Shown one piece after another: positions 3,597 to 62,895 of a stretch of 64,000 bases of DNA. The first letter of the stretch is position 1, and the number at the start of each line of letters is the position of its first letter. Both the position numbers and the translations under genes were made by a program. This DNA comes from Roseicyclus persicicus. GTDB taxonomy: Bacteria; Pseudomonadota; Alphaproteobacteria; Rhodobacterales; Rhodobacteraceae. Where the stretch lies: assembly GCF_012395815.1 (NCBI RefSeq), contig NZ_JAAZQQ010000007.1:62001-126000 (forward strand), given 5' to 3'. The notes under the pieces were generated by a model. That model ran no database searches. It was not told the origin of the DNA and was given only the letters and a program-made list of their open reading frames with translations.

Positions 3597-3640
3597 CGGG
3601 AAAACTCGAGTTTTCCCGTGCGAAAGACTCGAGTTTTTCG
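3597..3640. repeat. Palindrome array A (two hairpins) after the HIT gene
   Basis: Hairpin 1 (3597-3618) is a perfect 22-bp palindrome with arm CGGGAAAACTC around centre CTCGAG. Two bases (TG) follow. Hairpin 2 (3621-3640) has left arm CGAAAGACTC and right arm GAGTTTTTCG, with one G-T pair that is still a G-U pair in the plus-strand RNA. It belongs to the same family as arrays at 24056, 30491, 46504, 55838 and 62771. Confidence 0.8.
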
Positions 3641-3748
3641 CCACGGAACCCGCGCGTTTCCCGCCGCCCCCGCGACGCCCGCGCCCCTTGCCCGGTGGCC
3701 TGCAACCTGCCATATCGCCCAGCGACGACCGCAGCCGAGGACAGACCC

Positions 3749-23621: not shown

Positions 23622-24050
23622 ATGGCCAGCCCCGCCTTCGAGGAGATCGCCGAGACCTTCGAGTTCCTCGACGACTGGGAGGAGCGCTATCGCCACGTCA
23701 TCGATCTGGGCAAGGCGATGCCGGCCCTGGAGGACGCCGTGAAGGTGCCCGCGACCAAGGTGACGGGCTGCGCGAGCCAGGTCTGGATCCTGCCGCAGAT
23801 CGAGGGCGAGGGGCGCGGCGCGGTGTTCCGGTTCCGCGGCGACAGCGACGCGATCATCGTGCGCGGGCTGATCGCGGTGCTTCATGCGCTCTACGACGGG
23901 CTGACGGTGGGCGACGTGCTGACGGTGGACGCGGGCCGGGAACTCGCGCGGCTGGGGCTGAACGATCACCTGTCCTCGCAGCGGTCGAACGGCCTGCGCG
24001 CGATGGTGGAGCGGATCCGGTCGCTGGCGGCGGAGACGGCGGCCGCCTGA
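23622..24050 (+). CDS. sufE: SufE family Fe-S cluster assembly sulfur acceptor
   Basis: 142 residues. FEFLDDWEERYRHVIDLGKAMP and VTGCASQVW with Cys50 are diagnostic. The Cys accepts persulfide sulfur from the SufS desulfurase. GGAGG lies 8 nt upstream. No other suf genes are in the window. Palindrome array B follows 5 bp after the stop. Confidence 0.94.
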   Translation: MASPAFEEIAETFEFLDDWEERYRHVIDLGKAMPALEDAVKVPATKVTGCASQVWILPQIEGEGRGAVFRFRGDSDAIIVRGLIAVLHALYDGLTVGDVLTVDAGRELARLGLNDHLSSQRSNGLRAMVERIRSLAAETAAA

Positions 24051-24055
24051 GGGGG

Positions 24056-24122
24056 GCGAAAAACTGCAGTTTTTCGCACCGGAAAGCTGCAGCTTTCCGT
24101 GCCGGAAAACTCGAGTTTTCCG
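24056..24122. repeat. Palindrome array B (three perfect hairpins) after sufE
   Basis: Hairpin 1 24056-24077 (22 bp, arm GCGAAAAACTG, centre CTGCAG), spacer AC, hairpin 2 24080-24099 (20 bp, arm CGGAAAGCTG, centre CTGCAG), spacer TGC, hairpin 3 24103-24122 (20 bp, arm CGGAAAACTC, centre CTCGAG). All three are perfect and have no loop. The array fills the gap between the convergent sufE and DUF1638 stops. Confidence 0.9.
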
Positions 24123-24127
24123 CCGCC

Positions 24128-24769
24128 TCAGAGGTGCTTGAGCGCGACCTCCAGATCGCCGTAGCCGGTAAACCGCCGCTCGAAGTCGAGCTTGAGGAAC
24201 GCCGCGCAAGCCCTTGCCTTTTCGGTCAGATCCGGGTCGTCCGTCTGGGCCTGGTAGACCAGCTTGGTGTAGTTCCCGAAATACATGTCCCGCAGCTGCG
24301 GGTGCCGGTCCAGCCCCAGCGGCCGCGTCACGAAGGCGTCGAACTGGCGCACCAGGAAATCGGTCAGGTAGAAGGCCGTCATCTCGTCCCGCCCCGCGAA
24401 CACCGCGTTGCCCTCGAAGAAGCTGTAGCAGTGCGGCCCCTCCAGCATCCCCACGCCCAGCCGTGCGCAGGTCGCCTGCAACAGCCCCCCGGTGCCGCAA
24501 TCGGCGTAAAGGACGAACACCTCCGCGTAGTCGCCGCGCCGCGCCGTCACCGCGGCCTCGACGGCGGCGGGGATCTTCTCGGGATGGTTGTGCAGGATCG
24601 CGGGCAGGCAGTGCAGGTCCAGGTGGTCCCAGCCGTTCGCGGCGGTCAGGTCCAGCACCTCGCGCGCCAGCGCCCCGCAGCCGATCAGCAGCACCCGGCC
24701 CCGGCCCTCGGGGGCGAGGCCGGTCTCGGTCAGGGTCTGGTCGTCGAGGCGGGTCATGGGGCCGATCAT
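24128..24769 (-). CDS. DUF1638 family protein
   Basis: 213 residues (start ATG 24769, overlapping the upstream stop as ATGA; ATG 24757 is an alternative). VLLIGCGALAREVLDL, HCLPAILHNHPEKIP, VLYADCGTGGLLQATCARLG and RDMYFGNYTKLVYQAQTDDP are typical. Several Cys and His could bind metal or corrinoid-related partners. DUF1638 genes are often found near corrinoid methyltransferase systems, and one lies 4-7 kb away here. Function unknown. Confidence 0.82.
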   Translation of the reverse strand: MIGPMTRLDDQTLTETGLAPEGRGRVLLIGCGALAREVLDLTAANGWDHLDLHCLPAILHNHPEKIPAAVEAAVTARRGDYAEVFVLYADCGTGGLLQATCARLGVGMLEGPHCYSFFEGNAVFAGRDEMTAFYLTDFLVRQFDAFVTRPLGLDRHPQLRDMYFGNYTKLVYQAQTDDPDLTEKARACAAFLKLDFERRFTGYGDLEVALKHL

Positions 24770-30490: not shown

Positions 30491-30581
30491 GGGAGAGTTT
30501 TGCAAAACTCTCCCCACGCCCTTGCAAGGGCGTGGGCCAGAGCCTTGCAAGGCTCTGGGCAGGCTTTTGCAAAAGCCTGCC
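30491..30581. repeat. Palindrome array F: four abutting perfect palindromes centred on TTGCAA
   Basis: P1 30491-30514 (24 bp, arm GGGAGAGTTTTG), P2 30513-30536 (24 bp, arm CCCACGCCCTTG), P3 30537-30558 (22 bp, arm CCAGAGCCTTG), P4 30558-30581 (24 bp, arm GGCAGGCTTTTG). All four are perfect, loop-less, and overlap or abut by 0-2 bp, all sharing the TTGCAA centre with different arms. The array begins 11 bp after the radical SAM stop and ends 6 bp before the next gene's stop. Confidence 0.9.
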
Positions 30582-46503: not shown

Positions 46504-46571
46504 GCGGAAAACGCGCGTTTTCCGCAAGGGAAACCTCGAGGTTTCCCGTGCGTTTTCCTCGAGGAAAACGC
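46504..46571. repeat. Palindrome array C (three perfect hairpins) after the amidase
   Basis: Hairpin 1 46504-46525 (22 bp, arm GCGGAAAACGC, centre GCGCGC), spacer AA, hairpin 2 46528-46547 (20 bp, arm GGGAAACCTC, centre CTCGAG), spacer GT, hairpin 3 46550-46571 (22 bp, arm GCGTTTTCCTC, centre CTCGAG). All three are perfect. It starts 7 bp after the amidase stop and sits before the mrcA promoter. Confidence 0.9.
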
Positions 46572-55837: not shown

Positions 55838-55904
55838 GCGGAAAACTCGAGTTTTCCGCACCGAAAAACTCGAGTTTTTCGTGCCGTTTTCCTGCAGGAA
55901 AACG
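55838..55904. repeat. Palindrome array D (three perfect hairpins) after bcp
   Basis: Hairpin 1 55838-55859 (22 bp, arm GCGGAAAACTC, centre CTCGAG), spacer AC, hairpin 2 55862-55881 (20 bp, arm CGAAAAACTC, centre CTCGAG), spacer TGC, hairpin 3 55885-55904 (20 bp, arm CGTTTTCCTG, centre CTGCAG). It lies 16 bp downstream of the bcp stop on the minus strand and has the same spacers as array B. Confidence 0.9.
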
Positions 55905-55920: not shown

Positions 55921-56382
55921 TCAGAGCCCCTTGACCGCCGCAAGAACCGCCTCGGCGTGGCCCGGCACCTTGACCTTGCGCCATTCCGCGCGCAGCACGC
56001 CCGACCCGTCGATCAGGAAGGTCGACCGCTCGATCCCCATGTAGGTCTTGCCGTACATGGATTTCTCGGCCCAGACCCCGTAGCGCTCGCACACGTCGCT
56101 GGCCTCGTCGGAGGCCAGCACCACGCCCAGCCCGTGCTTGGCCACGAACTTGTCATGCGACTTGACGCTGTCCTTGGACACACCCACCACCACGGCGCCG
56201 GCGGCCTCGAACTCGGCGGCCATCGCGGTGAAATCCTTGGCCTCGGTGGTGCAGCCCGAGGTGTCGTCCTTGGGGTAGAAATACAGCACCACGGCCTTGG
56301 GGCGCAGCGCCGACAGCGTGATCTCGCCACCGCCGTCGCGGGGCAGGGTGAAGTCGGGGGCGGGGGCGCCTATCTCGGTCAT
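55921..56382 (-). CDS. bcp: Peroxiredoxin of the BCP/PrxQ type
   Basis: 153 residues. PAPDFTLPRDGGGEITLS, peroxidatic Cys in YPKDDTSGCTTEAKDF, and SKDSVKSHDKF. Reduces hydroperoxides with a thioredoxin-type reductant. GAGG precedes ATG 56382. Diverges from the AsmA-like gene. Confidence 0.95.
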   Translation of the reverse strand: MTEIGAPAPDFTLPRDGGGEITLSALRPKAVVLYFYPKDDTSGCTTEAKDFTAMAAEFEAAGAVVVGVSKDSVKSHDKFVAKHGLGVVLASDEASDVCERYGVWAEKSMYGKTYMGIERSTFLIDGSGVLRAEWRKVKVPGHAEAVLAAVKGL

Positions 56383-62770: not shown

Positions 62771-62817
62771 GGAGAACCGCGGTTTTCTTGGGCGCGAAAC
62801 CGCGGTGCCGCGGTTCC
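62771..62817. repeat. Palindrome array E (two hairpins) after DUF924
   Basis: Hairpin 1 62771-62788 (centre CCGCGG, arm GGAGAACCG; two pairs are G-U in the plus strand). Hairpin 2 62796-62817 has AACCGCGG-TG-CCGCGGTT. It starts 6 bp after the stop. Confidence 0.7.
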
Positions 62818-62895
62818 GTCTTGCCGAAGCCACACGCCCCCGCGCCGGCGGCCAGCCCTGCGCCCCGCGCAAACCCGCCTGCGACCCAACGGCAA

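Follow-up and report, generated by a model that had tools for sequence, protein, structure and literature searches.

The gap between the convergent sufE and DUF1638 genes of Roseicyclus persicicus, whose stop codons lie at 24050 and 24128, is filled by three consecutive perfect palindromes, and the locus raises the question of what such repeats are and how they come to be so symmetric. We analysed the surrounding 64,000 nucleotides (hereafter, the window; G+C 71%), which belong to a genome of 3.71 Mb in ten contigs. An earlier sequence-only reading had placed this array, termed B, in a family with arrays A, C, D and E, and had set a sixth, F, beside them. Most of the arrays that we found fall into class I, of the form GGAAAAC-NNNN-GTTTTCC, or class II, with a TTGCAA centre and varied arms. 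The features of the window on which the analysis draws are as follows.

3597..3663, no strand: array A, class I; of its units one is perfect and two are imperfect (palindrome scan; end from printed sequence)
23622..24050, plus strand: SufE-family gene, its stop preceding array B (PF02657, E 1e-41)
24056..24122, no strand: array B, class I, three perfect palindromes with centres 23 bp apart (sequence, palindrome scan)
24128..24769, minus strand: DUF1638 gene, convergent with sufE, its stop just beyond array B (PF07796, E 5.1e-30)
30491..30581, no strand: array F, class II, four palindromes, centre TTGCAA, spacing 22, 23, 22 (palindrome scan)
46504..46571, no strand: array C, class I, flanked by genes for an amidase and a penicillin-binding protein; three perfect palindromes
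55838..55904, no strand: array D, class I, order and spacers as in B (palindrome scan)
62771..62820, no strand: array E, imperfect class I-like units, end approximate, behind a DUF924 gene

The units of array B have no central spacer and occupy 24056–24077 (22 bp), 24080–24099 (20 bp) and 24103–24122 (20 bp), separated by AC and TGC. A palindrome scan confirmed that array D (55838–55859, AC, 55862–55881, TGC, 55885–55904) repeats this order of 22, AC, 20, TGC and 20, as the sequence-only reading had described. That reading's two or three palindromes per array were recovered as perfect units in B, C (22, 20 and 22 bp) and D; array A is partly imperfect and array E wholly so, with no perfect palindrome of arms at least 7 in the scan. 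Array F is real but of a different class, and its units abut or slightly overlap. The proposed stop-to-array distances of 6–17 bp needed correction: the gap is 5 nt for B and 6 for both C and E, and for A it is 3 or 11 according to the frame taken as the gene. Array D does not sit behind a plus-strand stop; 16 bp separate it from the minus-strand gene on its right, whose stop ends at 55921. Palindromes with arms of at least 9 numbered 14 in the window, compared with 1.4 on average and at most 4 in 20 second-order Markov shuffles, and for arms of at least 7 the excess was small (25 against a mean of 16.95 and a maximum of 22). Rfam 15 at gathering score gave no RNA family match within the window, and the closest named SufE relatives of the window copy come from Roseicyclus and other Rhodobacteraceae.

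We then defined an array as at least two perfect palindromes (arms of at least 7, one of at least 8) with centres 19–30 bp apart, and scanned 1.264 Mb, or 34% of the genome (C1 1–800000, C3 200001–600000 and the window), taking gene ends, except those of named Pfam genes, from our own gene finder, which makes them approximate. This sample held 35 arrays, 18 in convergent gaps and 17 in co-directional ones. None lay in a divergent gap or inside a gene, though 183 of the 659 gaps of at least 60 bp are divergent (90 are convergent and 386 co-directional), and by our own gene calls the nearest stop codon was −5 to 30 nt from every array. The sample therefore bears out both a stop-linked family with a shared blueprint and its enrichment in 3' gaps. 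Extrapolation to 3.7 Mb gives about 100 arrays; the hundreds per genome suggested earlier hold only for single palindromes, and there by extrapolation.

The arrays are also phased. Of 76 neighbouring pairs, 71 had centres spaced by 22 or 23 bp, and when looser quasi-palindromes were counted in the first 864 kb, their number was unremarkable (430 versus 383 in a shuffle), whereas 63 pairs spaced 22 or 23 bp were found versus none in the shuffle. By sequence, 19 arrays belong to class I, 14 to class II, which occurs in both orders relative to the gene, and two to neither (centres CTAG and GTAC). Three features go beyond the sequence-only reading: the separate standing of the TTGCAA class as a family, the 22/23-bp phase, and the symmetry of the loops described below. 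Separately, the arrays at C1:79026–79077 and C1:362933–362981 have centres TTCTAGAA and TTCGTACGAA with spacings of 28 and 29 bp, and are possibly classes of their own.

A fixed phase of about two helical turns, together with two-fold symmetry that runs through the centre, is what sites for a dimeric DNA-binding or nucleoid protein might display. We nevertheless regard this explanation as very unlikely, since class II arms vary widely and the classes share little sequence, so that the arm bases can hardly be read by sequence, and since strict 3' placement would be unusual for such sites.

The position behind stop codons argues instead for a role at the 3' end of the message. The arrays are not U-tract terminators, as the sequence-only reading had rightly noted: the T fraction after the 17 co-directional arrays is only 0.12, and a hairpin with a T-run was found in one of the 35 array gaps. 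U-tract terminators occurred in 1 of 18 convergent gaps with an array versus 15 of 84 others, which is the direction expected of mutual exclusion, in numbers too few to claim it. For 6 of the 17 co-directional arrays, the next gene has its called start 10–28 nt away. Three arrays, moreover, lie within what we take to be operons (an ABC permease pair; thymidylate kinase and DNA polymerase III delta'; DUF58 and DUF4159/BatA), contrary to the earlier expectation that operon-internal gaps would be free of them. Judged on sequence, hairpin trains that protect the upstream message would fit this combination of gene ends and operon gaps better than strict termination. Two further RNA structures were considered and set aside: an outer closing stem forming a cloverleaf, for which an array's own flanks paired no better than swapped ones (−9.63 versus −9.68 kcal/mol), and kissing loops within an array, which were unsupported (29 identical loop pairs versus 22.9 shuffled, P 0.074).

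One rival account of these data would stop at the RNA, with the arrays acting as tandem terminators without a U-tract or as 3'-end stabilisers, selection acting on the RNA hairpins only, and perfection reflecting strong selection or recent spread. It is consistent with placement at gene ends and with the promoter-like boxes that, by eye, follow some arrays (C, D and C3:46314); the three arrays in likely operons count against it. The symmetry of the units is the odd feature, as an RNA hairpin does not require a palindromic loop. Loops of 4 nt were palindromic in 119 of 179 gene-end hairpins versus 18 of 156 inside genes (stems of at least 7), and in 10 of 92 across 75 named loci. Excerpts of one source report a 4-bp spacer in most bacterial inverted repeats (PMC13155455). 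With class I arms fixed, 27 of 31 loops in the sample were palindromic and 4 were not; the corresponding figures were 43 of 50 among the matches listed (of 73) for the whole genome, and 59 of 75 among the matches listed (of 91) for eight other genomes. Among 64 class I units, the pair at the centre was GC in 31, CG in 31 and another in 2.

In class II, single arm mismatches were nearly absent. The six outer pairs flanking TTGCAA in the sample (n = 88) were all complementary in 54 cases, with five complementary in 1, four in 1 and three or fewer in 32. In 434 kb from eight other genomes, TTGCAA and TTCGAA centres (n = 177) gave 60 with six pairs, which are not all independent because some of these genomes are close relatives, none with five, 5 with four and 112 with fewer. 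Pooled, 114 units paired at six of six outer positions and one at five of six. This test requires an intact centre; centres one step off TTGCAA with perfect outer arms were looked for and not found. The 54 perfect TTGCAA units nonetheless carry 29 different arm hexamers, among which 28 pairs are a single symmetric step apart, 10 of them by transitions. Class I is less perfect, with six outer pairs in 46, five in 5 and four in 5 of the centres with A4/T4 arms (n = 102). Mismatches were also inspected for G–U asymmetry: on the sense strand, co-directional arrays had 5, one of them G–T; convergent arrays, read on an arbitrary top strand, had 8 G–T among 19; and in 488 co-directional gaps the 8-of-9 palindromes, a good part of which probably arose by chance, had 7 G–T and 3 A–C stem mismatches. 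These counts favour neither reading.

Comparison of orthologous arrays yielded evidence of both kinds. Differences between B arrays are mostly two-sided, and in L041 and L042, where array F and its right-hand neighbour are in common with the window, the first unit of F differs from the window copy by two-sided changes, as judged by eye. In array B of L041, in turn, two loop changes are one-sided and the stems are intact, as selection on RNA would predict.

We also followed the arrays through related genomes. For class I, we searched one genome per genus of the family (295), with a pattern of about 12 fixed letters, so that some matches are due to chance. It matched in 204 of the 295. The own genome had 73 matches, three others had 29, 24 and 14, two had 9 each, and the rest had 0–7, a level at which the reversed control, with 0–8, also lies. 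The 29 matches (G018) represent another family, with centre CATATG. Most copies of this CATATG class (GGAAACCATATGGTTTCC) are perfect among the matches listed, and some have one-sided central changes. Of 390 genomes, 14 had paired class II matches (the own genome 68, two members of a single genus 13 and 12, and the others 1–6), and single class II matches were no more frequent than in the control. Stretches of other genomes, chosen because the patterns matched there, contain 22/23-bp trains in which TTGCAA and TTCGAA centres are mixed. Both classes recur in Rhodobacteraceae, in a patchy manner. In one genome (G062), three loci (L187–L189) carry palindromes of 30–32 bp, each a TTCGAA-centred unit with CTTGCAAG on both sides, that look as if they were overlapping units.

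Individual arrays come and go between relatives. Within one genus, G378, G492 and G581 lack the class II pattern, have 37, 19 and 9 class I cores, and showed two, no and no arrays, respectively, in 80 kb of each. Array D is missing from G378 and G581, and G492 has just a short spacer there. Array C is missing from G492, and in G378 a different inverted repeat stands in its place. The G378 copy of array E is perfect but has another centre; those of the window, G581 and G492 are imperfect. The inverted repeat that G378 has at the place of C (L165) has arms GCGCAAAA/TTTTGCGC, and similar repeats are widespread in alphaproteobacteria. Behind sufE, a script found arrays at 5 of 80 named loci. Inspection of 29 of the 80 by eye identified class I arrays in L041, L042, L046 and L050, class II-like units in L044 and L074, and, in L043, apparently overlapping stops and no array; in L067, L072 and L115 the same gap holds seemingly ordinary terminators, as an RNA-only account would allow. 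Arrays C and D also have matches at many further sites of G378, G492, G581, G235 and G011, which marks them as members of a dispersed family.

Dispersal and presence or absence between relatives, as well as the two orders of class II arrays relative to the gene, could also be explained by selfish repeats, moved by an unrecognized transposase and tolerated behind stops, where insertion does least harm. Yet the own genome has no Y1 transposase, no target duplication of the kind expected of a MITE-like element is evident by eye at the empty sites of B, C and D, whose flanks are diverged, and divergent gaps, which should be equally harmless for a repeat that is not a terminator, hold none; we consider this explanation unlikely. 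Turnover bears on the RNA-only account as well, given that whole arrays are dispensable and that selection seems unlikely to purge nearly every intermediate from arrays that come and go. Taken with the palindromic loops and the near absence of single mismatches in class II despite 29 arm hexamers in 54 units, this makes that account doubtful in our view, even with the one-sided loop changes of L041 in its favour. The symmetry of the units exceeds what an RNA hairpin needs, a hint of a process acting on the DNA itself, and selection that acts only on RNA hairpins would not readily produce it. With the symmetry of units extending through the loop, and one-sided arm changes nearly absent in class II, symmetric writing or correction of DNA seems, from these alignments and counts, the simpler inference.

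We therefore favour, with a probability of about 0.45 for the whole, a reading of the arrays as REP-like trains of 3'-end hairpins with a presumed RNA role, whose symmetry would be kept at the DNA level. This reading starts from what was observed: where the arrays lie, their 22/23-bp phase, their dispersal, their coming and going among relatives, and the lack of a U-tract. They would constitute a dispersed REP-like repeat family of Rhodobacteraceae situated directly behind stop codons. Each transcribed unit could fold into a hairpin with a 4-nt loop, and a message end or intercistronic gap would carry a train of three to four hairpins, which would block 3'–5' exonucleases and may help RNA polymerase to stop without a U-tract. 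A palindromic unit serves either strand and so suits convergent genes. The symmetry would be written or restored in DNA, for instance through a template switch across the palindrome during replication or repair, and would not be due solely to selection on the folded RNA. Against upkeep at the DNA level stand the one-sided loop changes of L041 and the arm mismatches tolerated in class I, and young copies could be another source of perfection, though the arms are diverse. Also weighing against the favoured reading are the quasi-palindrome total, which barely exceeds that of the shuffle, the lack of arrays in the 80-kb stretches of G492 and G581, and the low share of named sufE loci with an array (5 of 80 by script). 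A more specific proposal, which we advance only tentatively, is a palindrome-writing process in Rhodobacteraceae, in which an enzyme or a template switch copies one 10–11-bp half onto the other. Arms and loop would then change on both sides in one event, and phased perfect trains behind stops would diversify with imperfect intermediates hardly ever seen.

Hairpins of the REP type are already known from the ends of bacterial genes. A sequence-varied family with two-fold symmetry through the loop, and with one-sided arm changes nearly absent in one class, would be something more: a single genome would hold, at perhaps a hundred places, a natural record of mutation that perfects palindromes. It would also caution that covariation in such elements need not imply selection on RNA structure.

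Compared with REP elements, whose loops are not known to be palindromic, the arrays are distinguished by perfect palindromes, palindromic loops and a 22/23-bp phase. Excerpts of PMC3733652 describe REP/BIME elements (GTAG and CGTC superfamilies) as short dispersed palindromic repeats, often grouped, that lie mostly between convergent and unidirectional genes, close to 3' ends, a placement shared by 35 of 35 arrays; they also report frequent G–T pairs in REP stems, and in excerpts of PMC2817692 REP palindromes are imperfect. Within the 35 arrays, GTAG/CTAC occurs in 4 and CGTC/GACG in 9, at no fixed place and several times inside stems, and the own genome has no match to the Y1 transposase (RAYT, PF01797), which was found in 5 of 14 control genomes. 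This last result counts only against the GTAG type, as CGTC repeats are reported, in the same excerpts, without transposase association (PMC3733652). REP/RAYT membership was rejected for want of a consistent tag and of a Y1 transposase. The sequence-only reading knew of no name for the family, and among the matches listed, the PMC papers searched gave none; that judgement stands insofar as REP-defining features are lacking, and is weakened by a placement identical to that in the excerpts of PMC3733652. Three arrays (C3:11361, C1b:52121 and C1:306312) have an end unit that is GGCGTCTTGCTGCAGCAAG or close to it, with CGTC at the edge, and a tie between such units and CGTC repeats is possible. 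In a relative (G284), a 44-bp palindrome containing GTAGGGTGGGTGCAACCCAC (L196, near 14513) looks, by its consensus, like a true GTAG-type REP dimer.

Three other systems invite comparison. Organelle genomes contain dispersed double-hairpin and palindromic elements, which resemble the arrays as dispersed palindromic hairpins and differ in being organelle-borne. Intrinsic terminators likewise place hairpins directly behind stops; the arrays differ from them in having no T-run. Tandem hairpins without a U-tract behind genes are recognized by WebGeSTer as U-less (I-shaped) or tandem terminators, and to our knowledge phase and loop symmetry are no part of that definition; these terminators are a prediction class, whereas the arrays are a repeat family.
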